A stretch of 64,000 bases of DNA. It comes from Guptibacillus hwajinpoensis. Its GTDB lineage: Bacteria; Bacillota; Bacilli; Bacillales; Guptibacillaceae. The notes beneath the pieces were generated by a model. That model saw only the letters and a program-made list of their open reading frames with translations. It was not told the DNA's origin and ran no database searches. The position numbers were made by a program, and so were the translations under genes. The stretch covers positions 1 to 64,000 of the forward strand of contig NZ_JAIVAE010000006.1 in the NCBI RefSeq assembly GCF_020171785.1, written 5' to 3'. Positions within the stretch are counted from its first letter, which is position 1; each line of letters begins with the position of its first letter. This document shows positions 13,539 to 59,999 of the stretch, one piece after another.

Positions 13539-13613
13539 AGATTCCATTGACGGGTAAGCAAAGGAAGATTATTCTTGGAGAAAGAGTAGAAAAAAAGCAG
13601 AGGAGGAAGAACT

Positions 13614-13679
13614 TTGACGAAGCGTCTATGGGGCAAGGGGTCAGTCCATGCTCACCTAGCAACATACATGAGATGGTGA
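13614..13679 (+). CDS. Possible 21-aa leader ORF coupled to the RAYT start
   Basis: A strong AGAGGAGG (13599-13606) stands 7 bases before a TTG that opens 21 codons. Its TGA (13677-13679) overlaps the ATG of the transposase (13673). The transposase itself has no visible ribosome binding site, so coupling through this leader is plausible. Evidence is positional only. Confidence 0.35.
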   Translation: MTKRLWGKGSVHAHLATYMRW

Positions 13680-19502: not shown

Positions 19503-21182
19503 ATGAGAAGAAAAACGCTGTCGCTGCTTCTAACTACGGCACTTGGAACGTCACTTTTAGCCCCTGGATCAGGATTAGCTGCACCCGGTCCGACAATCGA
19601 AAAAGAGGGAAAGGTTAACATGCATCAATCGAGAAAAGCTCACCCCGCTTTTTCTTGGGATAACCCGGGACCAACCTCTCCTGTTCTTCATCCTGGCTCA
19701 TACAAAGGAGCAGGAATGCGTGAAGAACCGCTCCAAAAGATTGACGGTTTACTGCAAAGCGCCATTGAGGATCAAGTAATGCCTGGCGCTGTTGCTTTTG
19801 TTGCAAGAAGAGGACAGATCGTGAAGGAAGAAGCGTACGGATATTCGGCTCAATACACAGATGGCGACTTTACTGAAATGGACAATCCGATTCCAATGAG
19901 CGAGAATACCATTTTTGATCTTGCTTCTATTAGTAAGCTCTTCACAACGACGGCGGCGATGACGCTCTATGAGGATGGGGCATTTCAGTTAGATGACCCT
20001 GTTGCCAAGTACATTCCTGAATTTGCGGCAAATGGAAAAGAAAACGTGACGATTGAACAGCTCATGACCCACACCTCTGGATTTAAACCGTGGATTCCTC
20101 TTTACACAATCGGAGAAGATCGAGACAATCGCTTAGAGTATGTCTTTCAATACCCACTTCAATCAGCGCCAGGAACAGACTATACATACAGCGACCTGAA
20201 CATGATTACGCTTGGTGCTTTGATTGAGAGGCTCTCAGGTATGCGTCTCGATGAGTATGTAAAGCAGGAAATCACAGAGCCGCTTGGCATGGACGATACG
20301 ATGTATAACCCGCCTGCTGAATTAAAAGAACGAATCGCCGCAACCGAATACCAGCCGTGGACAAATCGTGGACTCGTTTGGGGCGAGGTGCATGATGAAA
20401 GCGCCTGGTCACTTGACGGAGTAGCTGGTCATGCCGGTGTATTTTCAACGGCATCGGACCTCGCGAAATTTGCACATATGTATTTGATGGAAGGACGCTA
20501 CGGCGGAACGCGGATTCTAGAGCCGGCAACTGTCAAACTTTTAACGGAGAACCGGATTCCAGAGTTCCCTGGAGACGATCATGGACTTGGCTGGGAGCTT
20601 CAGCAGGGCTGGTTTATGGATGCTTTATCTGAAAGCACGACGCTCGGGCATACCGGGTATACTGGAACGTCGATCGTTGTGAGCCCAACAAATCAAACGA
20701 TTGCGATTCTGTTAACGAACCGCGTGCATCCAACGCGCGAAACAGTTTCAACGTCACCAACGAGACGAGCATTTGCGAGACAAGTAGCGGATGCGATTCC
20801 AGTTGCGATGGATAAAAAAGCAGATCCGTGGTTTGCAGGATATGGCAATAACGAGTCCAAACAGTTAACGGCTGAAGTTGATGTGGACGAAGCAACGACA
20901 CTTTCGTTTGATACGTGGTATCAAATGGAGGAAGGCTATGATACAGGAACAGTTGAGGTTACAGAGGATGGCGAGAAATGGACAGAGGTAGCGTCGCTAA
21001 CTGGCGCAAGCGAAAGTTGGGAAAGAGAAGAAGTTACGATTCCAGCGAATACGACACAAGTTCGCTTTACTTATCATACAGACGGATCAACGAATAAGCG
21101 CGGCTGGTACGTTGATGATGCCAAACTTGATCAACAGAAAATCTCGTTCACAAGCAATGAATGGGTGAAGCGAGCTTATTAA
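19503..21182 (+). CDS. Secreted AmiE-like serine hydrolase with C-terminal accessory domain
   Basis: 559 residues with a signal peptide (cleavage near GLAAPG). The beta-lactamase/S12 fold has SISK at 142-145, the YSDLN motif at 229-233 and GHTGYTG at about 382-388. In B. subtilis the equivalent position before nagZ and namZ is held by AmiE (YbbE), which removes the peptide from MurNAc; this is the likely role. An extra 120 residues (about 440-559, ending GWYVDDAKL) form a beta-rich domain resembling carbohydrate or surface-binding modules. It starts a three-gene unit: nagZ follows after 24 bp. AAGAGGAGGG precedes the ATG. Confidence 0.8.
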   Translation: MRRKTLSLLLTTALGTSLLAPGSGLAAPGPTIEKEGKVNMHQSRKAHPAFSWDNPGPTSPVLHPGSYKGAGMREEPLQKIDGLLQSAIEDQVMPGAVAFVARRGQIVKEEAYGYSAQYTDGDFTEMDNPIPMSENTIFDLASISKLFTTTAAMTLYEDGAFQLDDPVAKYIPEFAANGKENVTIEQLMTHTSGFKPWIPLYTIGEDRDNRLEYVFQYPLQSAPGTDYTYSDLNMITLGALIERLSGMRLDEYVKQEITEPLGMDDTMYNPPAELKERIAATEYQPWTNRGLVWGEVHDESAWSLDGVAGHAGVFSTASDLAKFAHMYLMEGRYGGTRILEPATVKLLTENRIPEFPGDDHGLGWELQQGWFMDALSESTTLGHTGYTGTSIVVSPTNQTIAILLTNRVHPTRETVSTSPTRRAFARQVADAIPVAMDKKADPWFAGYGNNESKQLTAEVDVDEATTLSFDTWYQMEEGYDTGTVEVTEDGEKWTEVASLTGASESWEREEVTIPANTTQVRFTYHTDGSTNKRGWYVDDAKLDQQKISFTSNEWVKRAY

Positions 21183-21206
21183 TTTTCAACAAACAGGAGG
21201 GATAAA

Positions 21207-23288
21207 ATGAAAGCACGAAAAATCGCGGTGGGGATATTGGCGTTTGTGATGATGTTTTCACAAATGTGGCTGCCAAAGGCTAGTGCAGAAGGTGCGCCAC
21301 AAATCATTTTAATGGAAAACGTTCCTGAAGTAAGCGCAGAGTTTGAGGGAGATACCATCACCCTTCATCCACTCCATATTTATGAAGACGGACATTTTAT
21401 GAAAACAGAGCAAAATCTTACATGGAAGTCATCGAATAAAAATGTTGCGAAAGTAGATGAGGATGGGGAGGTTACGTTAACAGGTAAGCGTGGCCGCACA
21501 TTCATTAGCGTTTCTGATGGCGAAAGCAGCGATCGCATTGCGATTGATTACAAAGTGAATAAAGCGGATAAAAAATCGTCTTCTCCAGTGATCGTTAAGC
21601 AAAAAGGAAAGAAGTATAACCTGATTGATAATGCGATTGCGGGCATGACGATGGAAGAAAAAGTTGGTCAAATGCTCATGCCAGATTACCGAAACTGGAA
21701 TGGTGAAAATGTCACTGAGATGCTTCCGGAAATCGAAGCACAGATCAAACAGTATCATCTTGGCGGCGTGATTTTATTTCGTGAGAACGTGGTGACTACT
21801 GAACAAACAACGAAGCTAGTCGCTGAATATCAAGAGGCTTCTGAAAAATACGGCATGCTGATGACGATTGACCAAGAAGGCGGCATCGTTACGCGTCTTC
21901 AGTCGGGAACCGACATGCCTGGGAACATGGCGCTTGGCGCAACGCGTTCACCAGAGCTTTCGGAAAAAGTCGGTCATGCGATTGGAGAAGAGCTAGCTTC
22001 TCTTGGAATCAATATGAACTTTGCACCTGATATGGATGTGAACAACAATCCCGATAACCCTGTTATTGGCGTTCGTTCATTTGGAGAAGATCCGGAGCTT
22101 GTTGCTGATCTCGGGATTGCTTATACAAAAGGACTTCAAGAAACTGGCGTAGCGGCAACGGCAAAGCATTTCCCTGGTCACGGTGATACAGCCGTAGACT
22201 CTCACCTCGGCCTGCCTGAAGTTCCTTATGACAAAGATCGCCTTATGGAAGTAGAGCTTTATCCGTTCCAAAAGGCGATGGAAGCTGGGATCGACGCGAT
22301 CATGACCGCTCACGTGACGTTTCCGAAAATTGATGATACGAAAGTAATTTCAAAAAAAGATGGAACGGAAATTTCGCTTCCTGCCACGCTCTCTCACAAA
22401 GTGTTAACCGAATTAATGCGCGATGAGATGGGATATGAAGGCGTCATTACAACCGATGCAATGAACATGGGCGCGATTCAAGATCACTTCGGATCTGTCG
22501 ATGCAGCAATCCGCGCCGTGAAAGCAGGAACGGATATTGTCTTGATGCCTGTTGGTCTTCCGGAAGTAGCAGAAGGATTATATGAAGCAGTAGAATCAGG
22601 TGATATTCCTGAGGAGCGCATTGAAGCGTCCGTTGAACGCATTTTAACGTTAAAAGTGAACAGAGGGATTATCAAGTCTGAGCATCCTATTGATGTAGAA
22701 GACCAAATTCAAGAAGCGCTTCAAACCGTTGGATCAGGCGAGCATAAAGCGGTTGAGAAAGAAGCTGCCGACAAGTCGATCACACTTGTGAAAAATGAGG
22801 ATGTTTTACCGCTTGATGCAAACAGTGATGATCACGTAGTCGTGGTTGGGAGAAGTTTTGTGTCTACGCTAGGTGACGCTGTAAAAGCACAGCATGAGAA
22901 TACGACAGTCATTGAAGCGAATTCCAGCTACACGTTAACGGATGAACAGCGTGAAACGATTGTTTCCGCTGATCAAATTATTGTAGGAACGTACACGTAT
23001 AGCGTAGGAACGCGTTCACCTGAGCATCCGCAAATGCTGATGGTTAACGCCATCATGAATGAAGCAGATGCACCGGTTATTGCTGTTGGGATTCGGAATC
23101 CATATGACATTATGGCGTATCCGGATGTTGACAGTTACCTCACACAGTATGGTTTTAGAACAGCGAGTTTTGAAGCGACAGCTGCTACTATTTTTGGTGA
23201 AAATGCACCAACAGGTAAGCTCCCGATCACGATTCCAGGGGAAACAGGCGGCATCCTTTACGACTTTGGACACGGATTAACGTACTAA
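21207..23288 (+). CDS. nagZ: Secreted beta-N-acetylglucosaminidase NagZ (GH3) with Ig-like domain
   Basis: 693 residues with a signal peptide. Residues about 45-115 look like a bacterial Ig-like (BIG2) domain (WKSSNKNVAKVDEDGEVTLTG). A GH3 barrel follows, with the diagnostic KHFPGHGDTAVDSH at 320-333, whose loop histidine is the acid/base in NagZ enzymes, and the nucleophile Asp in TTDAMNMGA (D417). A second alpha/beta domain follows to about 693, as in B. subtilis NagZ (YbbD). It removes non-reducing GlcNAc from muropeptides outside the cell. Genes on both sides are its expected partners. The Ig-like addition may tether it to the wall. Confidence 0.92.
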   Translation: MKARKIAVGILAFVMMFSQMWLPKASAEGAPQIILMENVPEVSAEFEGDTITLHPLHIYEDGHFMKTEQNLTWKSSNKNVAKVDEDGEVTLTGKRGRTFISVSDGESSDRIAIDYKVNKADKKSSSPVIVKQKGKKYNLIDNAIAGMTMEEKVGQMLMPDYRNWNGENVTEMLPEIEAQIKQYHLGGVILFRENVVTTEQTTKLVAEYQEASEKYGMLMTIDQEGGIVTRLQSGTDMPGNMALGATRSPELSEKVGHAIGEELASLGINMNFAPDMDVNNNPDNPVIGVRSFGEDPELVADLGIAYTKGLQETGVAATAKHFPGHGDTAVDSHLGLPEVPYDKDRLMEVELYPFQKAMEAGIDAIMTAHVTFPKIDDTKVISKKDGTEISLPATLSHKVLTELMRDEMGYEGVITTDAMNMGAIQDHFGSVDAAIRAVKAGTDIVLMPVGLPEVAEGLYEAVESGDIPEERIEASVERILTLKVNRGIIKSEHPIDVEDQIQEALQTVGSGEHKAVEKEAADKSITLVKNEDVLPLDANSDDHVVVVGRSFVSTLGDAVKAQHENTTVIEANSSYTLTDEQRETIVSADQIIVGTYTYSVGTRSPEHPQMLMVNAIMNEADAPVIAVGIRNPYDIMAYPDVDSYLTQYGFRTASFEATAATIFGENAPTGKLPITIPGETGGILYDFGHGLTY

Positions 23289-23354
23289 CACTGATGATCG
23301 GGGAGAGGCGCTCCTTCTTTCCGATCTTTTAAAAAATGGGGAGGCGTTCGGAAT

Positions 23355-24626
23355 ATGAAAAAGTGGTTGGTTATGGTTGTGACAGTGATGCTTGTTCTAT
23401 CCTCTTTGTCAGTCGCGCTTGCGGATAACAATGGAAAAGGAAATGCGTATGGTCATGATAAAAATAAGAAGAAATTCGAGCTTGGTGTGGAAGTGCTCCT
23501 TGAAGATCAGAAAGAATTAATCGAAGGTAAAAGCGTTGGCCTCATTACAAATCCAACGGGTGTTGATCAAGAGCTTAACAGTATCGTAGATTTATTACAC
23601 AATGACGCTGATGTTGATTTGAAAGCGCTCTATGGTCCAGAGCACGGCGTGCGTGGAAGTGCACAGGCGGGAGAATACGTGGAGTATTATATTGATGAAG
23701 AAACAGGTCTTCCTGTTTATAGTCTGTACGGCGATACGAAAAAACCAACGCCTGAAATGCTAGAAGGCATCGATGTGCTTCTATTTGATATTCAAGACGT
23801 TGGAACGCGATTCTACACGTATATTTACACGATGGCTTATGCCATGGAAGCTGCAGCTGAAAATGACATTGAATTTATCGTATTGGACCGACCGAATCCT
23901 CTTGGTGGTGAAGCGGTAGAAGGCCCTGTACTTAATGATGAGTACTCTTCTTTCGTTGGAAAATATGAAATTCCACTTCGCCACGGTATGACGGTAGGAG
24001 AGCTCGCCCAACTTTTTAATGAAGAATTTGAAATAGGTGCTAATTTGACTGTTGTTGAAATGGATAAGTGGAAGCGGGACATGTACTATGATGACACGCC
24101 TCTCGAATGGGTGCTTCCATCGCCAAATATGCCAACGCTTGATACAGCACTCGTCTATCCAGGTGCCGCTTTAATTGAAGGAACGAATGTCTCAGAAGGT
24201 CGCGGAACGACAAAGCCATTTGAATTAATTGGCGCACCTTTTATTAACGCAACGGAACTAGCCAATGAATTGAACGATCTTGAGCTTCCAGGCGTTGATT
24301 TTCGAGCGGCTTCCTTTACGCCTTCGTTCTCGAAGCACGCTGGGAAGTTAACACACGGCGTTCAAATTCATGTAACCGATAAAGAAGCATTTGAACCAGT
24401 TACAACAGGCCTTAGTCTAGTGAAAACCATACATGATCTATACCCAGAGGACTTCGAATTCCGTGCAGAAAACAGCGCTGGGGTTTCGTTCTTTGATCTT
24501 CTCGTAGGAAACGGTTGGATTCGAGAAGCGATTGAAAATGGCGAAAGCGTCGAAGAAATGCAGCAGCAGTGGGAAGAAGATCTTGAAAGTTTTAAAGAAG
24601 TAAGAGAAGAATACTTGCTTTACTAA
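23355..24626 (+). CDS. namZ: Exo-beta-N-acetylmuramidase NamZ (DUF1343, GH171)
   Basis: 423 residues with a signal peptide (ending VALA). The rest is one DUF1343 domain: GLITNPTGVD, YGPEHGVRG, FDIQDVGTRFYTY, DRPNPLGG and EGTNVSEGRGTTKPFE are all present. This family was shown to be the exo-N-acetylmuramidase NamZ (YbbC) of B. subtilis, which releases MurNAc from the non-reducing end of peptide-free glycan. With AmiE and NagZ it would convert wall fragments to free MurNAc and GlcNAc outside the cell. A strong terminator follows, so the downstream mur genes need another promoter. Confidence 0.9.
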   Translation: MKKWLVMVVTVMLVLSSLSVALADNNGKGNAYGHDKNKKKFELGVEVLLEDQKELIEGKSVGLITNPTGVDQELNSIVDLLHNDADVDLKALYGPEHGVRGSAQAGEYVEYYIDEETGLPVYSLYGDTKKPTPEMLEGIDVLLFDIQDVGTRFYTYIYTMAYAMEAAAENDIEFIVLDRPNPLGGEAVEGPVLNDEYSSFVGKYEIPLRHGMTVGELAQLFNEEFEIGANLTVVEMDKWKRDMYYDDTPLEWVLPSPNMPTLDTALVYPGAALIEGTNVSEGRGTTKPFELIGAPFINATELANELNDLELPGVDFRAASFTPSFSKHAGKLTHGVQIHVTDKEAFEPVTTGLSLVKTIHDLYPEDFEFRAENSAGVSFFDLLVGNGWIREAIENGESVEEMQQQWEEDLESFKEVREEYLLY

Positions 24627-24636
24627 GGGTTTAAAC

Positions 24637-24663
24637 GCACTCGTGAATGGCGAGTGCTTTTTT
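24637..24663 (+). terminator. Terminator after namZ
   Basis: GCACTCG, loop TGAATGG, CGAGTGC, then TTTTTT. Confidence 0.9.
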
Positions 24664-24855
24664 ATGTAATAAAACTTCACAAAAACACTTACATTATTAA
24701 ATAAAACTTGTTAAACTTAAATTATTAGAAAATTCAATACAAACATACTAAGAGGGGAGGATTACGCACGCCTTAGGGGGCAGTTATCTGATTACATAGC
24801 TGAAGAAGGATATGAAGACGTGTCATGAAATCATCAGAAGAAATGGGGAAAGCTT

Positions 24856-26256
24856 GTGAGAAAAGAAGAACGGTTAGCTAGTGAGATTTTACCTCTTCTC
24901 GGTGGGCCATCGAATATTCAATCATTAACAAGTTGTATGACGAGGCTTCGCGTAACACCTATTGATTCGTCAAAAGTAGCGCTCCAACAGTTAAAAGAAA
25001 TTGACGGGGTACTCGGCGTTGTCGAAGCTGAAACGGTTCAGGTGATTTTAGGACCAGGCATTGTGACGAAGGTAGCAGAAGAAGTTTCTAAGATGAGTGG
25101 CGTCGAAGCTGAGGATTTGGATGATAATGAAGACATTTTTGAAGGACTTGCAGCTCAAACGAAATCAGATTTGAAGCAAAAAAACGCTACGCCTTTCAAA
25201 TTGTTCTTAAGAAAAATAGCCAGCATCTTTATTCCGCTTATTCCAGCGATCGTAGCCTCAGGGTTAATTGCCGGAATTACGAACATCGTCATTCGATCAG
25301 GTGTCGATCCTGAAACGTCAATCGTATCGATACTTAATTTCATTGGTTGGGGACTCTTTGGTTATCTTGGTATTTTCGTTGGGATTAACGCTGCTAAGGA
25401 ATTTGGTGGAACCCCTGCACTAGGTGGAATTGCAGGTATCCTGATCATTAACCCGGCCCTTGCGGATATTACGCTCTTTGGTGAACAGCTCGTTCCTGGT
25501 CGTGGTGGTTTAGTCGGTGTCATGCTCGCTGCCTTTTTCATGGCCTGGACAGAGCGTCGCGTGCGTCGCTTCGTTCCTTCTTCTCTTGATATTATCGTAA
25601 CGCCAACGATTTCGGTGTTAATTACAGGGTTTGCGACGTTAATCGTGCTTCAGCCGATCGGCGGATTCGTTTCAGATTTGATTACACAAGGACTATTAGG
25701 ATTAATTGACGCTGGAGGTATTTTCTCAGGATTGATTCTTGCAGGAACGTTCCTACCGCTTGTCGTAACGGGGCTCCATCAGGGACTAACGCCCGTTCAT
25801 ATGGAATTAATTAACACGATTGGTGATGATCCACTGCTTCCGATTCTTGCAATGGGAGGCGCCGGTCAAGTTGGAGCAGCCTTCGCAATTTATTTTAAAA
25901 CAAAAAATAAGAAGCTTAGAAAAGTCATTAAAGCTGGATTACCAGTTGGGATTTTAGGTATCGGAGAGCCACTAATATTTGGGGTGACATTGCCACTTGG
26001 CCGACCGTTCGTCACAGCATGTCTCGGTGCAGCGATCGGAGGCGCTTTTGCCGCATTCTTTAAAGTCGCAACCATCGCAATTGGCGTATCCGGCTTGCCG
26101 CTCATTTTTCTTGTGAATTCAAATCAAATTCTGTACTACATCATTTCCCTTGTCGTGGCGTACTTCTTTGGCTTTGTCTTCACGTATCTGTTCGGATTTA
26201 AAGAAGAAATGACGGTTGCGATTGATAAAGGAGTCTCAAAGACGACAGCTGCATAG
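24856..26256 (+). CDS. murP: PTS EIIBC, MurNAc-type
   Basis: 466 residues. The N-terminal IIB domain carries the phosphorylated cysteine C27 in SLTSCMTRLRV; the IIC domain spans about 110-460 with about ten membrane segments and GEPLIFGVTLPLGRPF near the end. No IIA domain is present, so it must borrow one, as MurP of B. subtilis and S. aureus do. It should import MurNAc or GlcNAc-MurNAc disaccharide with 6-phosphorylation. The start is GTG at 24856 after a GGGG element. Assignment to MurNAc rests on mupG, murQ and murR directly downstream. It begins a ten-gene colinear run. Confidence 0.88.
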   Translation: MRKEERLASEILPLLGGPSNIQSLTSCMTRLRVTPIDSSKVALQQLKEIDGVLGVVEAETVQVILGPGIVTKVAEEVSKMSGVEAEDLDDNEDIFEGLAAQTKSDLKQKNATPFKLFLRKIASIFIPLIPAIVASGLIAGITNIVIRSGVDPETSIVSILNFIGWGLFGYLGIFVGINAAKEFGGTPALGGIAGILIINPALADITLFGEQLVPGRGGLVGVMLAAFFMAWTERRVRRFVPSSLDIIVTPTISVLITGFATLIVLQPIGGFVSDLITQGLLGLIDAGGIFSGLILAGTFLPLVVTGLHQGLTPVHMELINTIGDDPLLPILAMGGAGQVGAAFAIYFKTKNKKLRKVIKAGLPVGILGIGEPLIFGVTLPLGRPFVTACLGAAIGGAFAAFFKVATIAIGVSGLPLIFLVNSNQILYYIISLVVAYFFGFVFTYLFGFKEEMTVAIDKGVSKTTAA

Positions 26257-26269
26257 AGGAGGTACCAAG

Positions 26270-27334
26270 GTGCTCGGAATGTCTATCTATCTAGGAAGTG
26301 ATGGTGATATGGAACGGAAGTTAGAAAAAGCGCAGTCTTTCGGAGTGAAGGTGCTTTTCACTTCCTTACATATACCAGAAGACGATCACACGATCTATCA
26401 AACTCGTTTAAAAGAGCTTGGTCGTTTGGCAAAAAAATTTAAGATGGAGTTAGTGGCGGACATCTCGCCTCACTCCATCACCTTTTTAGGAATTGAGAAC
26501 TTTGAAGATTTACTAGAGTGGGGATTGAGTGGAATTCGGCCTGATTACGGGTATACTGATGACTTAATCGTTTCACTGTCTCAAAAGATGAAAGTTGGTC
26601 TTAATGCGAGCACCGTAACAAGAGAAGACATCAAGCGGTGGGTTGAATTAGGTGCAAACACACAGAATCTCGAAGCATGGCATAACTATTACCCACGTCC
26701 TGAAACGGGACTTGATGAGGAATTCTTTTCTGAGAGAAATCGATTATTTAAAGAATACGGCATCCAAACGATGGCATTCATTCCTGGAGATGGACAGCTG
26801 AGAGGACCTATTTATGCGGGCTTACCAACACTTGAGAAACATCGCCACGTCCCACCGCACATCGCCTGCGCTGATCTTCTCTATCACTATAATGTGGACC
26901 ACGTGCTGGTTGGGGATATTTCGATTAGCGACAATCAGTTTCGTAAACTATCACTTCTTTCAGAGGGCGTGATTCCACTTGAAGTGGAGAATTCAAATGC
27001 ACAGTTTGATAGATACCACGTCGCAGGTCGTCATGAAAATCGACCTGATCAAGCTCGAGATGTGATTCGTTCCGCGACTTCCAGACGTTTTCATGATCGT
27101 CCTGAGCCCATGATTTCAATGGAACGAAAATATGGGGCGGTGACGATTGATAACGTGAACTATGGCCGCTATGCCGGCGAAATCCAGCTAACAAAACGTG
27201 ATCTTCCGTCAGATGATCGAGTGAATGTAATTGGAAATGTAACAACAACTGATTTGCCGCTCTTACAATGGATCGGGGCGTCGCAGCCCTTTGACTTACG
27301 TTTGAAAAATGATGCTACAGATGAAAGGAATTAA
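26270..27334 (+). CDS. mupG: MupG-like 6-phospho-N-acetylmuramidase (DUF871)
   Basis: About 354 residues. GTG 26270 is chosen, with AGAGGAGG seven bases upstream and 13 bp after the murP stop. The DUF871 fold is a TIM barrel (SIYLGSDGDMERKLEKAQ, DISPHSI, GIRPDYG, GLNASTVT, HNYYPRPETGL) followed by a small C-terminal beta domain. MupG of S. aureus cleaves MurNAc-6P-GlcNAc, the product of MurP import, in the cytoplasm. Neighbours murP, murQ and murR are the same as in the S. aureus operon. Having MupG together with secreted NagZ and NamZ combines two known strategies. Confidence 0.85.
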   Translation: MLGMSIYLGSDGDMERKLEKAQSFGVKVLFTSLHIPEDDHTIYQTRLKELGRLAKKFKMELVADISPHSITFLGIENFEDLLEWGLSGIRPDYGYTDDLIVSLSQKMKVGLNASTVTREDIKRWVELGANTQNLEAWHNYYPRPETGLDEEFFSERNRLFKEYGIQTMAFIPGDGQLRGPIYAGLPTLEKHRHVPPHIACADLLYHYNVDHVLVGDISISDNQFRKLSLLSEGVIPLEVENSNAQFDRYHVAGRHENRPDQARDVIRSATSRRFHDRPEPMISMERKYGAVTIDNVNYGRYAGEIQLTKRDLPSDDRVNVIGNVTTTDLPLLQWIGASQPFDLRLKNDATDERN

Positions 27335-27338
27335 TGAA

Positions 27339-28244
27339 ATGAATTTAACAAACATCCAGACTGAACGAAGAAACCAAAACACACTCAAGATTGATCAAAT
27401 GACAACGTATGAAATTCTTCACGTGATAAATCAAGAAGATCATGTGATACCAGGAGCCGTTAAAGCATCGTTGCCTATCATTGATCAACTCGTTGATCAA
27501 ATTGTGGAGGCTTTTCAGAAGGACGGTCGCTTAATTTACGTTGGGGCAGGAACGAGTGGCAGGCTCGGTGTTCTTGACGCATCAGAATGTCCACCTACGT
27601 TCGGCACCCCATCTGAAAAGGTGATCGGCGTCATTGCAGGAGGAGATCAGGCGCTTCAATATGCTCTTGAAGGAGCAGAAGACGATGAAGAACAGGGCGT
27701 AGAGGATATGAGGAAGCTTAACCTTACTTCAAACGATGTGGTTGTTGGTATTGCCGCAAGTGGAAGAACGCCTTATACAGTAGCAGCCATGGCGTACGCG
27801 AAAACAGTAGGTGCTACGGTTGGTGCGGTAACTTGTAGTCGCCATTCGAAAATGGAGGAAGTGGCCCATTACAGTATCGTTGCGGATGTAGGGCCGGAAG
27901 TTGTAACAGGATCAACGCGTATGAAAGCGGGAACGGCTCAGAAGCTTGTCCTGAACATGCTGACTACCGCTTCCATGATCAAAATTGGAAAGGTTTACAG
28001 CAATTTGATGGTCGATGTTGTGCCAACGAACCGGAAACTCGTGCAGCGCGGGAAGAACATTGTCGCTGAAATTGCTGGGGTATCGGTCGAAGAGGCTGAA
28101 AAATCGCTAGAAAAATATGGATCAACGAAGGCAGCGATTTTATCCTTACTAACTGGATTAACAGGTGAAGCGGTTCACGCTACGTTAGATAGGTATGACG
28201 GTCACTTAAGAAAAGCAATTGAATCTGCTGTTGTGCCGAGCTAG
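27339..28244 (+). CDS. murQ: N-acetylmuramic acid 6-phosphate etherase (copy 1)
   Basis: About 301 residues from ATG 27339 (AAAGGA upstream, 4 bp after the mupG stop). The SIS-domain etherase motifs are GAGTSGRLGVLDASECPPTFG, containing the catalytic Glu, AASGRTPYT and GSTRMKAGTAQKL. It removes D-lactate from MurNAc-6P to give GlcNAc-6P, which enters the amino sugar pathway. Length and motifs match E. coli MurQ. A second copy lies at 34245, about 6 kb downstream. Confidence 0.93.
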   Translation: MNLTNIQTERRNQNTLKIDQMTTYEILHVINQEDHVIPGAVKASLPIIDQLVDQIVEAFQKDGRLIYVGAGTSGRLGVLDASECPPTFGTPSEKVIGVIAGGDQALQYALEGAEDDEEQGVEDMRKLNLTSNDVVVGIAASGRTPYTVAAMAYAKTVGATVGAVTCSRHSKMEEVAHYSIVADVGPEVVTGSTRMKAGTAQKLVLNMLTTASMIKIGKVYSNLMVDVVPTNRKLVQRGKNIVAEIAGVSVEEAEKSLEKYGSTKAAILSLLTGLTGEAVHATLDRYDGHLRKAIESAVVPS

Positions 28245-28304: not shown

Positions 28305-29156
28305 ATGAACGGTGGCCTGATCAGTCTTCAGGAATCAATCACTTCATTAAAACCTTCAGAACGAAAAGTGGCGGAATACATTATTCATTACCCAGAAGAA
28401 GTGATCAATCTCTCAATCCAGAAGCTCTCAAAACGAACAGAAGTAAGCGAAGCGACGATCATCCGTCTGGCTCGTACGCTAAATTACAAAGGATTTCAAG
28501 AACTGAAGCTTCGGATTGCAGGGGATCTTGCGACAAAGCAAACGAGTAAATCTTATCAAGAAATTTCGATTGATGGTACAGTGGATTCATTTATTGAAAA
28601 TGTCTCAAACAACAACATTCAATCAATCAATGATACGATCTCGGTTCTTTCAAAAGAGGAAGTGGAGAAAGCGATCGCTGCCCTTAGTCAGGCGCGCAAA
28701 ATTGCCCTGTTTGGCATTGGAGCATCTGGCTTAATTGCTCAGGATTTTAAACAAAAGCTTTCTCGCATCAATCGCTGGTGTGAAGCGGCCGTCGATTATG
28801 ATACACAAGGTACGATTAGCGCGAATCTCGAGGAGCAGGATGTTGTTTTTGGTATCTCCTACTCAGGTCAAACGAACGATATCATTGAATCGCTTAAAAT
28901 CGCAAAGGATAACGGCGCCACCGTTATAACATTAACCAAGTACGGCACGAACCCAGTATCAGATCTTGCTGATATTAAGCTGTTCACAAGCTCTCTTGAG
29001 AAAAGCATTCGAAGCGGCGCGATGAGCTCCCGTATTTCTCAGCTTAATGTAATTGATATTTTATACGTAGGCATGACAAGCCGAAACTACGAGGAAAGCG
29101 TAGCGGCACTTGAACGCACGCGAAAAGCGGTGGAGGTTGCGAAAAAGCATGGTTGA
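28305..29156 (+). CDS. murR: RpiR-family regulator MurR
   Basis: 283 residues: an N-terminal RpiR helix-turn-helix (about 1-75, with LSKRTEVSEATIIRLARTLNYKGFQELK) and a C-terminal SIS domain (about 115-260, FGIGASGLIAQDFKQKL and GISYSGQTND) that binds a sugar phosphate. In E. coli MurR binds MurNAc-6P and represses murQP; the same role is likely here. AAAGGTGGG precedes the ATG. Its stop overlaps the next gene (ATGGTTGA), joining regulator and amidase translation. Its operator could not be located. Confidence 0.87.
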   Translation: MNGGLISLQESITSLKPSERKVAEYIIHYPEEVINLSIQKLSKRTEVSEATIIRLARTLNYKGFQELKLRIAGDLATKQTSKSYQEISIDGTVDSFIENVSNNNIQSINDTISVLSKEEVEKAIAALSQARKIALFGIGASGLIAQDFKQKLSRINRWCEAAVDYDTQGTISANLEEQDVVFGISYSGQTNDIIESLKIAKDNGATVITLTKYGTNPVSDLADIKLFTSSLEKSIRSGAMSSRISQLNVIDILYVGMTSRNYEESVAALERTRKAVEVAKKHG

Positions 29157-30168
29157 AATTGACGCCTATCTCCGCGATCTTATTGTCAAAAAGGAGCTCC
29201 CTAGCGCTGTTCTTCACGTTCAACAGAAAGGGAGCACCGTTTTCCATCGTGCATACGGTGGATTTATTGATTCAAACCATCAACCCCACACCATGAAAAT
29301 ATCAACACGGTTTGACATTGCCTCCTTAACAAAAGTAATGGCCACCCTTCCGTCGATCCTATGGCTTGTTGACAACACATCTGTTGAACTCGATCACACG
29401 ATTCAAACCTACATCCCAGAATTCGTACACCAAGAGATTACGATTCGTCAGGCGCTTACCCATACGACAGGACTTCCAGCCGACCTTACGCCACCTGTAC
29501 AACGTTTCGAGACACGTGATGTTTTTAACGAAGTGGTGAATGCTGAACTTATTTCTAAGCCTGGAACAGTTGTAAAGTATAGCGATCTTGGCATGATTTT
29601 ACTAGGAATGGTCATTGAAAAGATAACTGGCCGGCCGATTTCCGCTTTTACAAAGAAGGTTCTCTATAAACCGTTGGGGTTAACACAGACTAGCTTTCAT
29701 CCAGATCAACCGCTGCAAGTCGCTTCAACAGAGTGGACGAAAGAGAGCTATCTACAAGGAGAAGTACATGATGAAAAAGCGCTCCATCTTGGCGGCGCGA
29801 GCGGAAGTGCTGGTCTCTTTTCTACTGCGAGTGATGTTGGCAATTTTGGATCTTATTTTCTTTATCCAGAAACGCAAACGGTGCTATCACATGAATTGAT
29901 CAGAAAGACTCGGAATCACGTTGCTGAAAACCGCGGCATGGGGTTTGAAGTGTGGAGCGGGAAAGGCACTACTTTATCATGCGGAAGGGGGTGGTCAGCA
30001 GGAAGCTTCGGCCATACGGGATTTACGGGAACGAGTTTATGGATTGATCCGCAGAAAGAGCTGATTGTTACGTTTTTAACGAATGTTGTTCAGTATGGAA
30101 GGAAGCACAATATGAAACACATTCGTCCTAATCTTCATTCTTTGATTCACGCTCATTTTACTAACTAA
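29149..30168 (+). CDS. Cytoplasmic AmiE-like serine hydrolase paralogue
   Basis: About 339 residues from ATG 29149, which overlaps the murR stop by 8 bp; GGAGG lies upstream. It is a beta-lactamase/S12 domain with SLTK at 59-62, KYSDLGM around 143 and GHTGFTG around 289. It resembles the secreted enzyme at 19503 but has neither signal peptide nor the C-terminal module, so it should stay in the cytoplasm. A sensible inference is removal of peptide from imported MurNAc-peptides. An esterase or D-amino peptidase role cannot be excluded from sequence. Confidence 0.78.
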   Translation: MVEIDAYLRDLIVKKELPSAVLHVQQKGSTVFHRAYGGFIDSNHQPHTMKISTRFDIASLTKVMATLPSILWLVDNTSVELDHTIQTYIPEFVHQEITIRQALTHTTGLPADLTPPVQRFETRDVFNEVVNAELISKPGTVVKYSDLGMILLGMVIEKITGRPISAFTKKVLYKPLGLTQTSFHPDQPLQVASTEWTKESYLQGEVHDEKALHLGGASGSAGLFSTASDVGNFGSYFLYPETQTVLSHELIRKTRNHVAENRGMGFEVWSGKGTTLSCGRGWSAGSFGHTGFTGTSLWIDPQKELIVTFLTNVVQYGRKHNMKHIRPNLHSLIHAHFTN

Positions 30169-30184
30169 ACGAGGGGGAAAAGTA

Positions 30185-31465
30185 ATGAATAGAATGAAAG
30201 CGTTTACTTTAACTGGTTTTTTAGCATTTATTTTAGTTTTATCCGCATGTAGCTCTGAAAGTGGTGGCAATTCAGGAGATTCTGAAGCGAGTGAAGACAG
30301 CGTCACGCTAACGATTGGCAGCTGGCGAACAGAAGATAAAGCAAGTTATCAAAAAATCATCGATAAATTTAATGAAGAAAACCCGGACATTAACGTTGAG
30401 TTTAAACCTTCCAAAAACACGGAGTATAACACGATTTTAAACACAGCCCTTCAAAGTGGGGAAGGACCTGATATCATTCACCTACGTCCTTATACACCTG
30501 GGATCGAACTTGCGGATGCAGGATACTTGGAGCCGCTTGATGATTTAGAAGGCCTCGATCAATATCCAGAAGAAACGCTATCCGCTTCAAAAGGATCGGA
30601 TGATAAGCAATATGGTGTACCGCTTAATATGAGCACGACCCAAATGTTTTACAACAAAAAAATGTTTGAAGAAATGGGCCTTGAAGAACCACAAACGTGG
30701 GATGAGTTCATGGCGCTAAATGAAAAAATTAAGAAAGAAGGTACGACACCGATCGCCCTTGGTACAAAAGAAGGCTGGCTGTTGTCGTTATCACATGGCA
30801 TCATTGGACCTGCTCACTATGGTGGCAATGAATTCGTCGATCAGATTACAGCAGGCGAAACCGATTTTACAAGCGACGAATTTCAAAGCTCGATTGACGC
30901 AATGGATGAGCTAAAACAGTTTTTCCCTGATAACTATGAAGGACTTGGGATGGAAGATATTCGCACGATGTTCTTTACAGGTGACGCAGCGATGTTCCCG
31001 CTAGGAAGCTGGGAAATTGAAGTGCTACGTGAAATGAATCCTGACCTTGAACTCGGTTTCTTCCCGATTCCGTCTGCTGTTGGAAAAGAGCCGACGATTA
31101 CAACATGGGTGGATGGCTCCTATGCGATCAATGCGAGTTCTGAGCATAAAGATGCCGCAAAGAAATTTCTTCAGTTTATGACAACGGAAGAGTTTGGCAC
31201 GATGTTCACAGAAGAATTTAAAATGATCAGCGCGATTCCAGGGATTGAGTCTGAGGATGAGCTTGTGAATGCGCTCGGAAAAGCAGCAGAAGAGCAGTCG
31301 ACACCTTACATGATGCTTGTTCACTTTGCTGGTGGAAATCCGTCCACGAAAGCGACAATTGAAACAGAGCTACAAGGCATGTACCTTGGTGAACGCACAC
31401 CGGAGGAAGTAGCGAAAACGGTTCAGGAAAGCGCGCAGTCATGGTATGAGCCACTACAGAAATAA
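30185..31465 (+). CDS. Sugar ABC transporter substrate-binding lipoprotein
   Basis: 426 residues. Signal peptide with lipobox LSAC (C22), then a family 1 extracellular solute-binding domain (CUT1). GAGGGGG precedes the ATG and the gene starts 16 bp after the amidase, within the mur run. CUT1 proteins bind oligosaccharides or amino sugars. Position between an amidase and a BadF-type kinase plus MurQ suggests MurNAc, a muropeptide or GlcNAc as ligand. It is clearly different from the two binding proteins at 60-63 kb. Confidence 0.85.
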   Translation: MNRMKAFTLTGFLAFILVLSACSSESGGNSGDSEASEDSVTLTIGSWRTEDKASYQKIIDKFNEENPDINVEFKPSKNTEYNTILNTALQSGEGPDIIHLRPYTPGIELADAGYLEPLDDLEGLDQYPEETLSASKGSDDKQYGVPLNMSTTQMFYNKKMFEEMGLEEPQTWDEFMALNEKIKKEGTTPIALGTKEGWLLSLSHGIIGPAHYGGNEFVDQITAGETDFTSDEFQSSIDAMDELKQFFPDNYEGLGMEDIRTMFFTGDAAMFPLGSWEIEVLREMNPDLELGFFPIPSAVGKEPTITTWVDGSYAINASSEHKDAAKKFLQFMTTEEFGTMFTEEFKMISAIPGIESEDELVNALGKAAEEQSTPYMMLVHFAGGNPSTKATIETELQGMYLGERTPEEVAKTVQESAQSWYEPLQK

Positions 31466-31477
31466 GGGGCGGAGAGT

Positions 31478-32434
31478 ATGAAACCAGCTACGAATTCAAA
31501 TTCAGTCGTCAAAATGAAGAAGGAGAGGAACTGGAAAAGGTGGACCATCCACCTTTTTCCTATTCCTGCTCTTCTCATCTATGGGCTATTTATTGTTTAT
31601 CCACTATTTGCCGCATTAACGTACAGCTTTTTTGATTGGAAAGGGATTGTGCGCGGAGAGTTTGTCGGCTTAAAGAATTTCAAGGATCTCTTTACACTTG
31701 AGCCTTTTTCAGGACTTTTCTGGAATGCTTTTGGCCACAACATTCTTTATTTCGTGCTACAGATGATTTTTCAAAACGGTCTTGCTTTTATTCTGGCTTA
31801 TATTATCTATAAAAAGGTAAAAGGGTCGGAATTTCTTAAAATTGCTTACTTCCTGCCACGACTGTTATCCGTTATTGTTGTCGGATTCTTATGGAAGCTG
31901 ATTTTAAATCCAAACTACGGTGCACTAAATGTCATTCTTGAGAAGATCGGTTTGGAACAGCTCCAAAAAGCGTGGCTTGGTGATCCAGATACAGCTCTTA
32001 TTTCGATCATTCTCGTTAACTGCTGGTACGGCATCGGGTTCGGTGTGCTCATTTTTCTTGCTGGTCTTCAGTCGATTCCAAAGGAATTGTTTGAAGCAGG
32101 TAAGCTCGATGGCGCAGATGGCCTTTCGATGATCCGAAAAATTGTTCTACCGTTAATGGTTCCTTCGTTCATGATTATGACAGTCCTTACGTTTATTCAG
32201 TCGTTCGAGGCATTCGAACTTGTCTATGCGATGCAAGGATCGCAGGGAGAACCTTATCATTCGACGGATACGCTTGCGATTTACTTCTATCGCCTCGCAT
32301 TCGGCGGCTCCGCAGGTGGATCAACGACGGCAGTCGGATTAGGATCCGCACTGGCGGTTGTGCTCTTTCTCTTTATCTCATTTTTTACCGCACTTTATTT
32401 ACGCTACATGCAGAAAAAACAAGTGGACATGTAA
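31478..32434 (+). CDS. Sugar ABC transporter permease (MalF type)
   Basis: 318 residues, six predicted membrane segments after a Lys-rich N-terminus. The EAA loop EAGKLDGADGLSMIRKIVLPLM, which contacts the ATPase, is present. It pairs with the permease at 32447. No ATP-binding subunit is encoded in this cluster, as is common in Bacillus CUT1 systems that share an MsmX-like ATPase. Confidence 0.87.
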   Translation: MKPATNSNSVVKMKKERNWKRWTIHLFPIPALLIYGLFIVYPLFAALTYSFFDWKGIVRGEFVGLKNFKDLFTLEPFSGLFWNAFGHNILYFVLQMIFQNGLAFILAYIIYKKVKGSEFLKIAYFLPRLLSVIVVGFLWKLILNPNYGALNVILEKIGLEQLQKAWLGDPDTALISIILVNCWYGIGFGVLIFLAGLQSIPKELFEAGKLDGADGLSMIRKIVLPLMVPSFMIMTVLTFIQSFEAFELVYAMQGSQGEPYHSTDTLAIYFYRLAFGGSAGGSTTAVGLGSALAVVLFLFISFFTALYLRYMQKKQVDM

Positions 32435-32446
32435 GGAGGCGAACTG

Positions 32447-33271
32447 ATGAACCATACGATCTGGACGAGACCGTTTTACTATGTATTTGCTTTTCTGATC
32501 GCGTCAATCAGCATCTATCCGATTTTATTAATGATCCTTTCGTCTTTCAAAACGAGCGCGGAGATTTTCACAAGTCCACTCTCCTTGCCGAAGACGTTCA
32601 ACCTTGATACGTACCGGAACTTACTTGAAATGATTCCGTTTACGACGTATTTTATGAACAGCGTTTTTGTGAGTGTTGTATCTGTGTTATTAATTCTGAT
32701 CACATCTTCACTCGCTGCTTTCTATATTGCACGCTTCACATTCGTCTGGAATAACATTATTTTCTTTTTTTTCCTGATGGGGATGATGCTTCCGATTAAA
32801 CTTGGCATCGTGCCGTTGTTTATTTTAATGAAAGATTTGAATCTATTAAACTCCTTATGGTCGCTGATTTTTATGTATGTGGCAACGGGGATACCTCTGT
32901 CAATTCTGATTTTGACCGGATTCTTCCGAACGATGCCGCGCGAGCTTGAAGAAGCGGCACGAATTGATGGAGCTGGAAACCTGCGTATTTTATGGAATGT
33001 TGTTCTTCCCTTAATGCGTCCAGCGCTTGGAACGGTTATGATTATTCAGTTTATCCAATCGTGGAATGATTTCTTTTTCCCGCTCATTTTTATTACGGAT
33101 GATCTGAAAAAGACGATTCCGGTTGGCATGCTTTCACTTTTCGGTGAATACTCTGCAGACTGGGGGGCGCTTTTTGCAGGACTAACGTTAGCTTCACTGC
33201 CGATGATTGTGCTTTTCTTCATCGCATCGAAACAATTTATGGAAGGACTGACTCAGGGTGCCATTAAATAA
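32447..33271 (+). CDS. Sugar ABC transporter permease (MalG type)
   Basis: 274 residues with six membrane segments and the EAA loop EAARIDGAGNLRILWNVVLPLM. AAGGAGG lies just before the ATG, 12 bp after the first permease. It overlaps the start of the kinase gene by 14 bp, so the kinase is translationally linked to transport. Confidence 0.88.
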   Translation: MNHTIWTRPFYYVFAFLIASISIYPILLMILSSFKTSAEIFTSPLSLPKTFNLDTYRNLLEMIPFTTYFMNSVFVSVVSVLLILITSSLAAFYIARFTFVWNNIIFFFFLMGMMLPIKLGIVPLFILMKDLNLLNSLWSLIFMYVATGIPLSILILTGFFRTMPRELEEAARIDGAGNLRILWNVVLPLMRPALGTVMIIQFIQSWNDFFFPLIFITDDLKKTIPVGMLSLFGEYSADWGALFAGLTLASLPMIVLFFIASKQFMEGLTQGAIK

Positions 33272-34226
33272 AAAAGTGTATATGGGGATAGACGGCGGTG
33301 GCACGAAGACGGTTGGCCTCATTTGTAATCAGGATGGGGTCATTCTCTCAAAGAGTATAGTCGGATCCACGAATGTGAAATCGCGCCCGGAAGTTGAAGT
33401 TCGAGCGGCGATTCATCAGGTAACGACGGAATTAATGTCAGGTGTAAAAGAGAGAGAGCTTTGTAGTGTTTTTGTCTCCACAGCGGGTGGTGATCGTGAA
33501 GTAGATCAGCTGCGCTGGAAAAAGTGGGTGTTAGAGGTCCTGCCAGGATATAAAGGAGGACTCGAGGTTCGGAACGATGCCTACGGTGCGTTAGCAAGTG
33601 GAACCTTTTCCATGGAAGGAACAGTTGTGATCGCTGGAACGGGTTCGATTGCTTATGCTTTAGATCCGGATGGCTCAAGACGAGCGGGTGGTTGGGGTTA
33701 TTTGTTTGGAGATGAAGGCAGCGGCTATGATATTGGACAGCATGCGCTTCGCACTGTTGCGATGATGCATGATGGAAGATTAATCGTAGATAAAGCCTTT
33801 TGTGACGAACTTCTTTCCTTCTTGAAGTTAACCAGTGTTACCGAGATGATTACGGCGATTTATGAGGATCCATATGCGCGTATGAAAATCGCTTCTGTGG
33901 CTGAAGTGGTGATCGCCCTAGCGGAAAAGCGAAATCCGACAGCTTTGGGTCTCGTTCAGCATGCGTATCAAAAGTTGAGCGAGTTAATTAATGCGATTGA
34001 GGTGCGGAGCGGTAGGCTTGTCGTTTGTGGAGGATTGATGCAATCGTCTTTTTTCCAGGATGGGCTTGTTAAGGAAGTAAGGAAAAGCGGTATTAGCAAT
34101 GTGTTTTTCCCGACTTTATCACCAGCGGTAGGCGCATGTATTTGTGCCTTGATTGTGAATGGGCAGCCGATTACCGAAGAACGAAAATCAAATCTTATGT
34201 CGTCTTATCACGTCATGAGCGGATAA
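33258..34226 (+). CDS. BadF/BadG-type amino sugar kinase (MurK-like)
   Basis: 322 residues of the ASKHA ATPase family. The phosphate-binding loop GIDGGGTKTVG is at 10-20, then ND near 113, VIAGTGSIAYA, GGWGYLFGDEGSGYDIG at about 152-168 and an adenosine motif VCGGL. Related enzymes are N-acetylglucosamine kinases and the MurNAc/GlcNAc kinase MurK of Clostridium. Next to a sugar ABC transporter and MurQ2, a 6-kinase for MurNAc (and maybe GlcNAc) is the best reading. The GTG start at 33258 overlaps the permease end; a later GTG at 33276 is possible. Confidence 0.8.
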   Translation: MPLNKKVYMGIDGGGTKTVGLICNQDGVILSKSIVGSTNVKSRPEVEVRAAIHQVTTELMSGVKERELCSVFVSTAGGDREVDQLRWKKWVLEVLPGYKGGLEVRNDAYGALASGTFSMEGTVVIAGTGSIAYALDPDGSRRAGGWGYLFGDEGSGYDIGQHALRTVAMMHDGRLIVDKAFCDELLSFLKLTSVTEMITAIYEDPYARMKIASVAEVVIALAEKRNPTALGLVQHAYQKLSELINAIEVRSGRLVVCGGLMQSSFFQDGLVKEVRKSGISNVFFPTLSPAVGACICALIVNGQPITEERKSNLMSSYHVMSG

Positions 34227-34244
34227 CGAATAGGAGAGATGCAA

Positions 34245-35147
34245 ATGAGTGATGAAAACAATGCGAAAACGGAAATGAGAAATGCAAAATCGGAACATCT
34301 TCATCAGTTTTCAACACTTGAGATTATTGAGCTAATGAATGAGGAGGATGCGAGCGTTGCTGGAGTTGTGAAAATCGCTCTTCCTCAGGTTGAAAAAGTG
34401 ATTGATGAGGTTGTTGGTGTGATAAGAAATGGCGGGAAACTCTATTATTTCGGTGCTGGTACGAGCGGACGGCTCGGCGTGTTAGATGCCTCTGAGTGCC
34501 CACCTACTTTTGGCGTAGCAGCGGATCTTGTAAATGGCATTATCGCAGGCGGAGACCGAGCGCTTCGTTATCCGATTGAGGGAGCGGAAGACAGTCGAGA
34601 GCTTGGTGCTGAAGATGTGCGAAAACATATGAGTGAACGTGATATGGCGATTGGTCTTGCGGCTAGTGGAAGAACGCCATACGTGCTTGGGGCGATGGAA
34701 GCGGCAAATGAAATAGGTGCAAAGACGGCGGGGATTTCATGCAATACGAGCGCTCTGCTTTCGAAAATCGTTACATACGCAATTGAACTACCAGTTGGAC
34801 CAGAAGTGGTGACGGGATCGACCCGGTTAAAAGCAGGAACGGCGCAGAAGATGGTGTTAAATATGATTACGACTGCTTCCATGGTGAAGCTTGGAAAGGT
34901 GTACCGCAATTTAATGGTCAATGTGCAGGCGTCGAATGAAAAGCTGCGGAAGCGGACTGTTTCGATTATTCAGGAGTTGACGGGAGTTAGTAAGGGAGAA
35001 GCCGCGCGCTATAGTGAACAGGCGGAAGGGGATGCACGTGTAGCGGTTTTGATGATTTTGTTGAAGCTGGATGGGGAGAGAGCGAGGCAGATGTTAGAGG
35101 AGAAGTGTGGGGATTTTGTGGCGGTGATGGAGGAGGATAGAGGATAG
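34245..35147 (+). CDS. murQ: N-acetylmuramic acid 6-phosphate etherase (copy 2)
   Basis: About 300 residues. All MurQ motifs are present: GAGTSGRLGVLDASECPPTFG, AASGRTPYV and GSTRLKAGTAQKM. It differs from copy 1 at many positions across its length, so this is an old duplication or separate acquisition, not a recent copy. ATG 34245 is preferred, with GGAGAG seven bases upstream; ATG 34239 abuts that site. It closes the ten-gene run, and its stop codon touches a family B palindrome. Confidence 0.92.
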   Translation: MSDENNAKTEMRNAKSEHLHQFSTLEIIELMNEEDASVAGVVKIALPQVEKVIDEVVGVIRNGGKLYYFGAGTSGRLGVLDASECPPTFGVAADLVNGIIAGGDRALRYPIEGAEDSRELGAEDVRKHMSERDMAIGLAASGRTPYVLGAMEAANEIGAKTAGISCNTSALLSKIVTYAIELPVGPEVVTGSTRLKAGTAQKMVLNMITTASMVKLGKVYRNLMVNVQASNEKLRKRTVSIIQELTGVSKGEAARYSEQAEGDARVAVLMILLKLDGERARQMLEEKCGDFVAVMEEDRG

Positions 35148-35173
35148 GGGGTCAGGCTCGAGCCTGACCCCTA
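35147..35173. repeat. Family B palindrome
   Basis: GGGGTCAGGCTC meets GAGCCTGACCCC, a perfect inverted repeat centred on CTCGAG, followed by TACAAAGTACAAATGTCC. It shares its first G with the TAG stop of murQ copy 2. Confidence 0.92.
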
Positions 35174-35213: not shown

Positions 35214-35250
35214 CCAAAACAGCCCCTGCAGGAATTCCCTGCAGGGGCTG
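35214..35250 (-). terminator. Minus-strand terminator of the BH0509-like gene
   Basis: A perfect 13-bp stem CAGCCCCTGCAGG / CCTGCAGGGGCTG. TTTT follows it on the minus strand, none on the plus strand. Confidence 0.85.
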
Positions 35251-35261
35251 TGAACGTCTAT

Positions 35262-37892: not shown

Positions 37893-38001
37893 CTCTTATC
37901 AAGAGTGGCAGAGGGACTGGCCCTATGACGCCCAGCAACCATCTCAGTTCGTGAGAAAGGTGCTAATTCCAGCAAACGAGCAATCGTTTGAAAGATGAGA
38001 G
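37893..38001 (+). promoter_or_regulatory. SAM-I (S-box) riboswitch
   Basis: Conserved S-box blocks are in order: CTTATCAAGAG, AGAGGGACTGGCCCTATGA, CCCAGCAACC, AAGGTGCTAATTCC and the closing GATGAGAGGGAG. The first and last blocks form the P1 helix. Binding of S-adenosylmethionine stabilises P1 and allows the terminator at 38041 to form, shutting off the operon when SAM is plentiful. Confidence 0.95.
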
Positions 38002-38040
38002 GGAGTTCAAGCACGGCTGATTTGTTATCCGAAATCACTC

Positions 38041-38075
38041 AACTCTCTCTGTCCTTTACAGAGGGAGTTTTTTTA
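38041..38075 (+). terminator. Riboswitch-controlled terminator
   Basis: ACTCTCTCTGT pairs with ACAGAGGGAGT, followed by TTTTTTT. Its 5' arm can alternatively pair with the GAGAGGGAGTT at the riboswitch 3' end, giving the antiterminator. Confidence 0.9.
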
Positions 38076-38172
38076 TTGGGATGGGGTTTAACAGATTCTA
38101 AAACTTTTGCGCTTTGAAGTTTTAGTGCTAGAACGCTTTATATTACTACATAATTTAGGAGGAGATTCAAAG

Positions 38173-38982: not shown

Positions 38983-39003
38983 TTTGAAAGAGGAGTGAAT
39001 ACG

Positions 39004-59227: not shown

Positions 59228-59232
59228 CCCCC
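59207..59232. repeat. Family B palindrome overlapping the galE stop
   Basis: GGGGTCAGGTTC meets GAACCTGACCCC, followed by CATCACAAACAAGTGTCC. The galE TGA is in the right arm. Confidence 0.92.
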
Positions 59233-59944: not shown

Positions 59945-59999
59945 TGGGGGTCTTTGAGGGGGTCAGGTTCGAACCTGACCCCCTTCAAAGACAATTGTC
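59945..59999. repeat. Family B palindrome, extended copy
   Basis: TCTTTGA before and TTCAAAGA after the GGGGGTCAGGTTC / GAACCTGACCCCC core extend the inverted repeat to about 41 bp (59951-59991). The tail AAAGACAATTGTCC completes the fullest copy in the window. Confidence 0.92.

Follow-up and report, generated by a model that had tools for sequence, protein, structure and literature searches.

The window analysed here comprises 64,000 nucleotides of Guptibacillus hwajinpoensis (Pseudalkalibacillus group, genome of 4.24 Mb), and all coordinates are positions in this window. Between 28305 and 35147 it carries, in this order, the genes for a regulator (MurR), a second homologue of the amidase AmiE (AmiE2), the binding lipoprotein and two permeases of an ATP-binding cassette (ABC) importer, a BadF/NAGK-type kinase, and a second etherase (MurQ2) for the 6-phosphate of N-acetylmuramic acid (MurNAc). 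This operon is a real, widespread, conserved and little-described variant of MurNAc salvage that is independent of the phosphotransferase system (PTS) and contains a cytosolic AmiE. The block probably encodes a way of salvaging MurNAc-containing fragments of the cell wall without the PTS.

Genes were assigned to families by Pfam and NCBIfam profile searches. From murR to murQ2 they are separated by gaps of -8, 16, 12, 12, -14 and 12 bp and form a tight operon. The amiE2 ATG at 29149 follows a GGAGG within murR and shares 8 bp with the murR 3' end (ATGGTTGA); the GTG start of the kinase at 33258 overlaps the second permease gene, permG, by 14 bp, and murQ2 begins 12 bp past the kinase. A preliminary description of this DNA had reported the coupling of the amidase to murR, its end 16 bp before the ABC binding-protein gene, the overlap of kinase and permease and the position of murQ2 behind them, and each of these junctions was confirmed. 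Upstream of murR and in the same direction lie murP, mupG and murQ1. Further upstream is a secreted set, amiE1-nagZ-namZ, with a 229-bp gap containing a T-tailed hairpin between it and murP.

The order murR-amiE2-SBP-permF-permG-murK-murQ2 (SBP, binding protein; permF, first permease) was retained behind amiE1-nagZ-namZ in 15 of 15 family genomes. In eight of these, a murP-mupG-murQ1 trio was inserted between a tandem-palindrome operator and murR. In the other seven, mupG was absent genome-wide (E cut-off 1e-10), no MurP orthologue was found and no EIIBC exceeded 38% identity to MurP, yet the block was complete; the MurP dependence of the B. subtilis-type pathway does not extend to these genomes. 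Because the trio occupies this position in eight genomes and is missing from seven, the ABC/kinase block is the invariant core, to which the PTS trio appears to have been added later. By kinase identity (69-89%), the eight trio-bearing genomes stand closer to the window genome, and the trio is missing from the genus outside them, so that a single gain is the simplest inference. An ancestral trio that was subsequently lost was judged less likely, since it is missing from the outgroup genus and the deeper branches, where the operator stands directly before murR.

The operator comprises two boxes of consensus GAAATWWWATTTC at a spacing of 32 bp. This tandem was the best-scoring pair in 51 of the 78 regions upstream of orthologous operons, six more of the 78 regions contained the pair at 33-bp spacing, and shuffled controls yielded 3 of 1560. 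Within the 64 kb no other tandem pair of this kind was found besides that at 24666/24698. PTS-less relatives carry the same operator sequence directly before murR, and from this position and the palindrome we infer that the operator is bound by MurR. As the trio lies between operator and murR, all ten genes could form one MurR-controlled transcript. Scans for sigma-70 promoters and terminators were at chance level overall (16 terminator-like sites found, 15.4 expected); a hairpin similar to that at 24637..24657 recurs at the same place in most relatives.

We surveyed the importer more widely by a profile scan with the binding-protein alignment, which returned 80 loci, mostly from Bacillaceae, Planococcaceae and Paenibacillaceae together with two candidate-phylum loci. 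Contig ends truncate some loci, many loci come from related species, and the counts are not independent events. The neighbourhood of the binding-protein gene contained murQ in 65 loci, murR in 60, a short AmiE in 57 and murK in 41; in 73 loci it held one or more MurNAc-salvage genes. In three families, the amiE2 gene immediately precedes that of the binding protein; this and the constancy within the family argue that the gene order is not due to chance. A MurK-type kinase was encoded somewhere in each of the 39 importer genomes searched. Of these 39 more distant genomes, 36 had no MurP match at E<=1e-70, and the other three had matches of 38-39% only. These locus counts and the absence of MurP argue for an association of the importer with MurNAc genes rather than with the PTS. 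The preliminary description had spoken of a "PTS-independent branch": the independence stands, given the seven family genomes and the 36 distant ones, but the block is not a side branch, since it forms the core to which the PTS trio is the variable part.

AmiE2 is cytosolic. Its S12/beta-lactamase-fold domain (PF00144, E 4e-51) begins within the first few residues, and neither AmiE2 nor its orthologues, which have the same start in the same family and in others, possess a signal peptide or room for one. In AmiE1, the product of the gene at 19503, the catalytic domain starts at residue 81, behind a signal peptide. An AlphaFold model of AmiE2 (32 sequences, mean predicted local distance difference test score 95.3) places residues 2-13 in the first helix of the fold. 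Thus the two paralogues differ as had been proposed, and the amidase is indeed intracellular. Although AmiE2 lacks the secretion typical of the AmiE family, it has the SxxK, YxD/N and HTG motifs (SLTK 59-62, YSD 144-146 and HTG 289-291), which are invariant or nearly so among orthologues. AmiE2 is predicted to be an amidase acting on MurNAc-peptide.

A search of the genome itself found two full AmiE homologues only, AmiE1 and AmiE2. In a tree of 45 AmiE domains, three supported clades were resolved (secreted, NagZ-operon and ABC-operon), with the ABC-operon AmiE2 proteins forming a single clade (support 100/99) apart from the other two. AmiE2 is on this evidence an old companion of the importer, and the tree rejected a recent copy of AmiE1. 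The ratio of non-synonymous to synonymous substitution rates (dN/dS) of AmiE2 against four relatives was 0.13-0.31, compared with 0.03 or less for the importer. AmiE2 is therefore under purifying selection; a decaying gene was rejected because these values are well below one. In the same species pairs, the proteins encoded at 29149-30168 (AmiE2) and 33258-34226 (MurK) evolved several times faster than the importer.

The operon encodes an SBP_bac_1 lipoprotein and two BPD_transp_1 permeases, as expected of a CUT1 importer, and no ATPase gene. CUT1 importers in Bacillota usually share an ATPase. One MalK-OB protein, an ATPase of the MsmX/MalK type, is encoded elsewhere in the genome and would power the permeases of the operon. 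The closest solved fold to the binding-protein model was that of a chitin-oligosaccharide binding protein (7eho, template modelling score 0.78-0.82), followed by raffinose binders; this fold would fit an amino-sugar cargo and is no proof of one.

The best solved relative of the kinase was the MurNAc/GlcNAc (N-acetylglucosamine) kinase 8zo3 (E 5.5e-34), which from its entry name we take to be C. acetobutylicum MurK, in line with the kinase named in the preliminary description. The kinase has the BcrAD_BadFG fold of MurK and the motifs DGGGTKT, NDA (containing the catalytic Asp) and AGTGS, which are kept in 19 orthologues, and scored 92.9 on the NagK model (cut-off 370). The MurK loop residues do not separate MurNAc from GlcNAc kinases, the GGWGYLFGDEG loop being common to the GlcNAc kinases of the family; activity on MurNAc is a prediction from sequence. 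MurQ2 contains ASECPPTF and EGAED, presumably the motifs that hold both catalytic glutamates, as in E. coli MurQ, and so has the hallmarks of a MurQ. It shares 49% identity with MurQ1, giving this genome two MurQ proteins. No NCBIfam equivalog model exceeded its cut-off for the binding protein, the kinase, AmiE2 or MupG.

We propose that secreted NamZ, NagZ and AmiE1, together with other autolysins, would release MurNAc and small MurNAc-peptides, and that one or both of these would be captured by the lipoprotein encoded at 30185. The two permeases, driven by the shared MsmX-type ATPase, would import this cargo unphosphorylated. In the cytosol, AmiE2 would strip the peptide where it is still attached, MurK would phosphorylate O6 using ATP, and MurQ2 would cleave the resulting MurNAc-6-phosphate to GlcNAc-6-phosphate and D-lactate, with MurR controlling the operon through the tandem operator. 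A more specific form of this proposal is that a dedicated sugar-type ABC importer takes in whole MurNAc-peptides, which cytosolic AmiE, MurK and MurQ convert to GlcNAc-6-phosphate, in a pathway common in Bacillota and so far undescribed; we consider the chances of this to be about even. In Gram-negatives, AmpG and AmpD place peptide removal inside the cell. Were whole MurNAc-peptides imported here, the extracellular step of B. subtilis would have been moved inside, with an S12 enzyme in the place of AmpD.

The side of the membrane on which the peptide is removed appears to vary between groups. In Paenibacillus, Lysinibacillus, Psychrobacillus and some Bacillaceae, a search with AmiE1 found short AmiE frames only (~340-375 aa) and no secreted 550-aa form; for two genomes it gave no hit that reached the cut-off. 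The AmiE step would therefore lie inside these cells, unless polymer-acting amidases work outside, and their importer probably accepts MurNAc-peptide. Conversely, the P. decolorationis group has secreted AmiE1 only, genome-wide, and its cluster lacks amiE2 and murK; Neobacillus clusters contain AmiE1 in place of AmiE2, with a short AmiE elsewhere in the genome. As the clusters without AmiE2 carry AmiE1, the two proteins seem to stand in for one another at a single step, performed either outside or inside the cell. The binding proteins of the AmiE1-only and short-AmiE groups are ~70% identical. With the same importer and a secreted AmiE only, the P. decolorationis group must be able to import free MurNAc.

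Several observations weigh against the proposed route. The same importer is found in clades that have no AmiE2 at all, so a peptide-bearing cargo is not required, and the window genome itself also has secreted AmiE1, which is expected to strip peptides outside. Several clusters (Sutcliffiella and the P. ehimensis/elgii/tyrfis group) lack a local murK. The GHAG motif, kept in secreted and NagZ-operon AmiE, is GSAG in the AmiE2 clade (GNAG in Thalassobacillus), a clade-wide replacement of His by Ser or Asn through which specificity may differ from that of AmiE. Finally, the AmiE2 model matched mostly esterases and DD-peptidases, and amide hydrolysis is for this reason not established by the fold.

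Some of these points would suit an importer restricted to free MurNAc (or a MurNAc disaccharide), leaving AmiE2 with another cytosolic job, for example the cleavage of some other amide or ester. In favour of this reading are the clusters of the P. decolorationis group and Neobacillus, in which the importer occurs with secreted AmiE1 and AmiE2 is missing, the clade-wide change from GHAG to GSAG, and the faster evolution of AmiE2 than of its neighbours. We nonetheless regard it as unlikely, given that a short AmiE is the only AmiE found in many genomes and that AmiE2 directly precedes the binding protein in all three families. It is similarly doubtful that the kinase acts before the amidase, with MurK phosphorylating incoming MurNAc-peptide and AmiE2 cutting the phosphorylated muropeptide. 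Amidase-first is the simpler order and needs no phospho-muropeptide intermediate; however, human NAGK, which belongs to the kinase family of MurK, phosphorylates MurNAc-dipeptide directly, at C6 (PMC9477735), for which reason we leave the order open, and the altered GSAG motif could suit a changed substrate.

Import of GlcNAc-MurNAc(-peptide) disaccharides, to be cut inside by cytosolic NagZ or NamZ, is improbable. It would account for a Fredinandcohnia locus joining the same importer to murK, murQ, a short AmiE and a short NagZ, and for a short NamZ beside the importer in loci L062 and L066, but NagZ and NamZ are secreted in the genus of the window and loci containing NagZ usually have an additional, distinct ABC importer. 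An importer for an unrelated oligosaccharide, placed here by chance, is highly improbable in view of the linkage to murQ, murR, murK or amiE in 73 of 80 orthologues, even if CUT1 binders are hard to assign from sequence and raffinose and xylo-oligosaccharide binders rank high too.

Features of the MurNAc salvage region in the window and the evidence for their assignment.
Feature	Position	Strand	Evidence
amiE1 - nagZ - namZ, secreted set	19503..24626	+	families; signal-peptide-like N-termini in all three
Terminator-like hairpin behind namZ, parting secreted set from operon	24637..24657	+	GC stem and T run
Candidate MurR operator, boxes GTAATAAAACTTC (24666) and TAAATAAAACTTG (24698)	24666..24710	.	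32 bp apart, in namZ-murP gap
MurP-like PTS EIIBC, first gene of PTS trio	24856..26256	+	PTS_EIIC/EIIB; name from context
MupG, 6-phospho-N-acetylmuramidase	26279..27334	+	PF19200 E 2e-71, PF05913
MurQ1, MurNAc-6-phosphate etherase	27309..28244	+	TIGR00274, 374 bits (cut-off 302)
MurR, RpiR-family regulator	28305..29156	+	HTH_6 and SIS
AmiE2, cytosolic S12 hydrolase, predicted MurNAc-L-Ala amidase	29149..30168	+	PF00144
Sugar-binding lipoprotein, CUT1-type ABC importer	30185..31465	+	SBP_bac_1; lipobox LSAC
ABC permease 1 (MalF type)	31478..32434	+	BPD_transp_1
ABC permease 2 (MalG type, permG)	32447..33271	+	BPD_transp_1
MurK-type amino-sugar kinase (BadF/NAGK family)	33258..34226	+	PF01869 (BcrAD_BadFG)
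MurQ2, MurNAc-6-phosphate etherase	34239..35147	+	TIGR00274, 367.8 bits (cut-off 302)

The EIIBC is termed MurP-like from its context because its score on the MurP model (321 bits) is below the cut-off of 516. On the 3' side of murQ2, a very strong hairpin of 15 pairs (35219-35251) may mark the transcription end of the operon. Directly behind murQ2 (35148-35171) is a 24-bp palindrome starting GGGGTCAGGCTC (or GGTTC), with further copies at two or three sites (59208-59231, 59959-59982 and 61476); a REP-associated tyrosine transposase is encoded in the same window at 13547-14254. Elsewhere, at 37893-40702, a SAM riboswitch (Rfam, 99.8 bits) precedes a MetQ-type methionine ABC importer.

Among the more distant loci, in L062 (5513-9709) and L066 (6702-13947), murR and the same importer are accompanied by genes for a short NamZ and a two-domain GNAT acetyltransferase, additions that perhaps serve de-N-acetylated wall sugars. 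The candidate-phylum loci L099 and L109 contain binding-protein relatives (~50% identical) next to a SIS-domain protein and further ABC genes; their surroundings show no clear salvage genes. A second operon type occurs in Bacillaceae and Paenibacillaceae (L194, 4095-18539; L182, L183, L184, L185, L186, L187, L189 and similar). It combines varying sets of a MurK-type kinase, GNAT acetyltransferase, MurQ, short AmiE, PIG-L deacetylase, short NagZ without signal peptide, AnmK, short NamZ and a MupG-like protein with a different ABC importer, sometimes with its own ATPase, and has the appearance of a full pathway for larger wall fragments within the cytosol.

In B. subtilis and S. aureus, MurNAc or MurNAc-GlcNAc is taken up by MurP (PMC5061867, PMC6262408), reported as the sole uptake route in both (PMC5061867). 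The B. subtilis cluster murQ-murR-murP-amiE-nagZ-ybbC (NamZ) (Borisova 2016, PMC5061867) resembles the window in its secreted AmiE/NagZ/NamZ set, regulator family and MurQ; however, the MurP PTS phosphorylates its substrate at entry, whereas the window contains an ABC importer, a kinase and a second, cytosolic AmiE. The MupG-MurQ-MurP-MurR set of S. aureus (PMC6262408) corresponds to the murP-mupG-murQ1 trio of the window but, as described, is without ABC importer, MurK and AmiE, and the trio is dispensable here, being absent from 7 of 15 family genomes. C. acetobutylicum MurK (Reith 2011), cited in PMC5790795 as acting on MurNAc and GlcNAc, is the closest solved relative of the window kinase (8zo3), yet distantly related. 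MurT-MurK-MurQ of Tannerella forsythia (PMC5790795) likewise unites MurNAc import, a kinase and MurQ, but in a Gram-negative MurNAc auxotroph whose kinase is 26.7% identical to C. acetobutylicum MurK. In Agrobacterium, YejBEF-YepA (PMC9790009) also couples ABC import of muropeptides to cytosolic peptide removal. That system is Gram-negative, with a broad peptide-type importer and anhydro-muropeptide cargo; the window has a CUT1 sugar-type importer, a MurK/MurQ route and an S12 enzyme instead of an AmpD-type amidase.

A literature search found no report of a MurNAc ABC importer in Bacillota; subscription papers were mostly outside this search, and an earlier prediction in a paper or regulon database is possible. 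The assembly, which the author of the preliminary description did not know, thus appears unreported but is not unique to this genome, occurring in 15 of 15 family genomes and among 80 importer loci.

Salvage of MurNAc in Gram-positive bacteria has so far been described as PTS-dependent. The operon offers concrete candidates for a MurNAc-binding protein, which would be useful for wall labelling and muropeptide sensing; according to PMC13041923, the MurNAc transporter of mycobacteria is also unknown. An ABC route would explain wall recovery in the Paenibacillus, Lysinibacillus and many Bacillaceae that lack MurP and carry MurQ.

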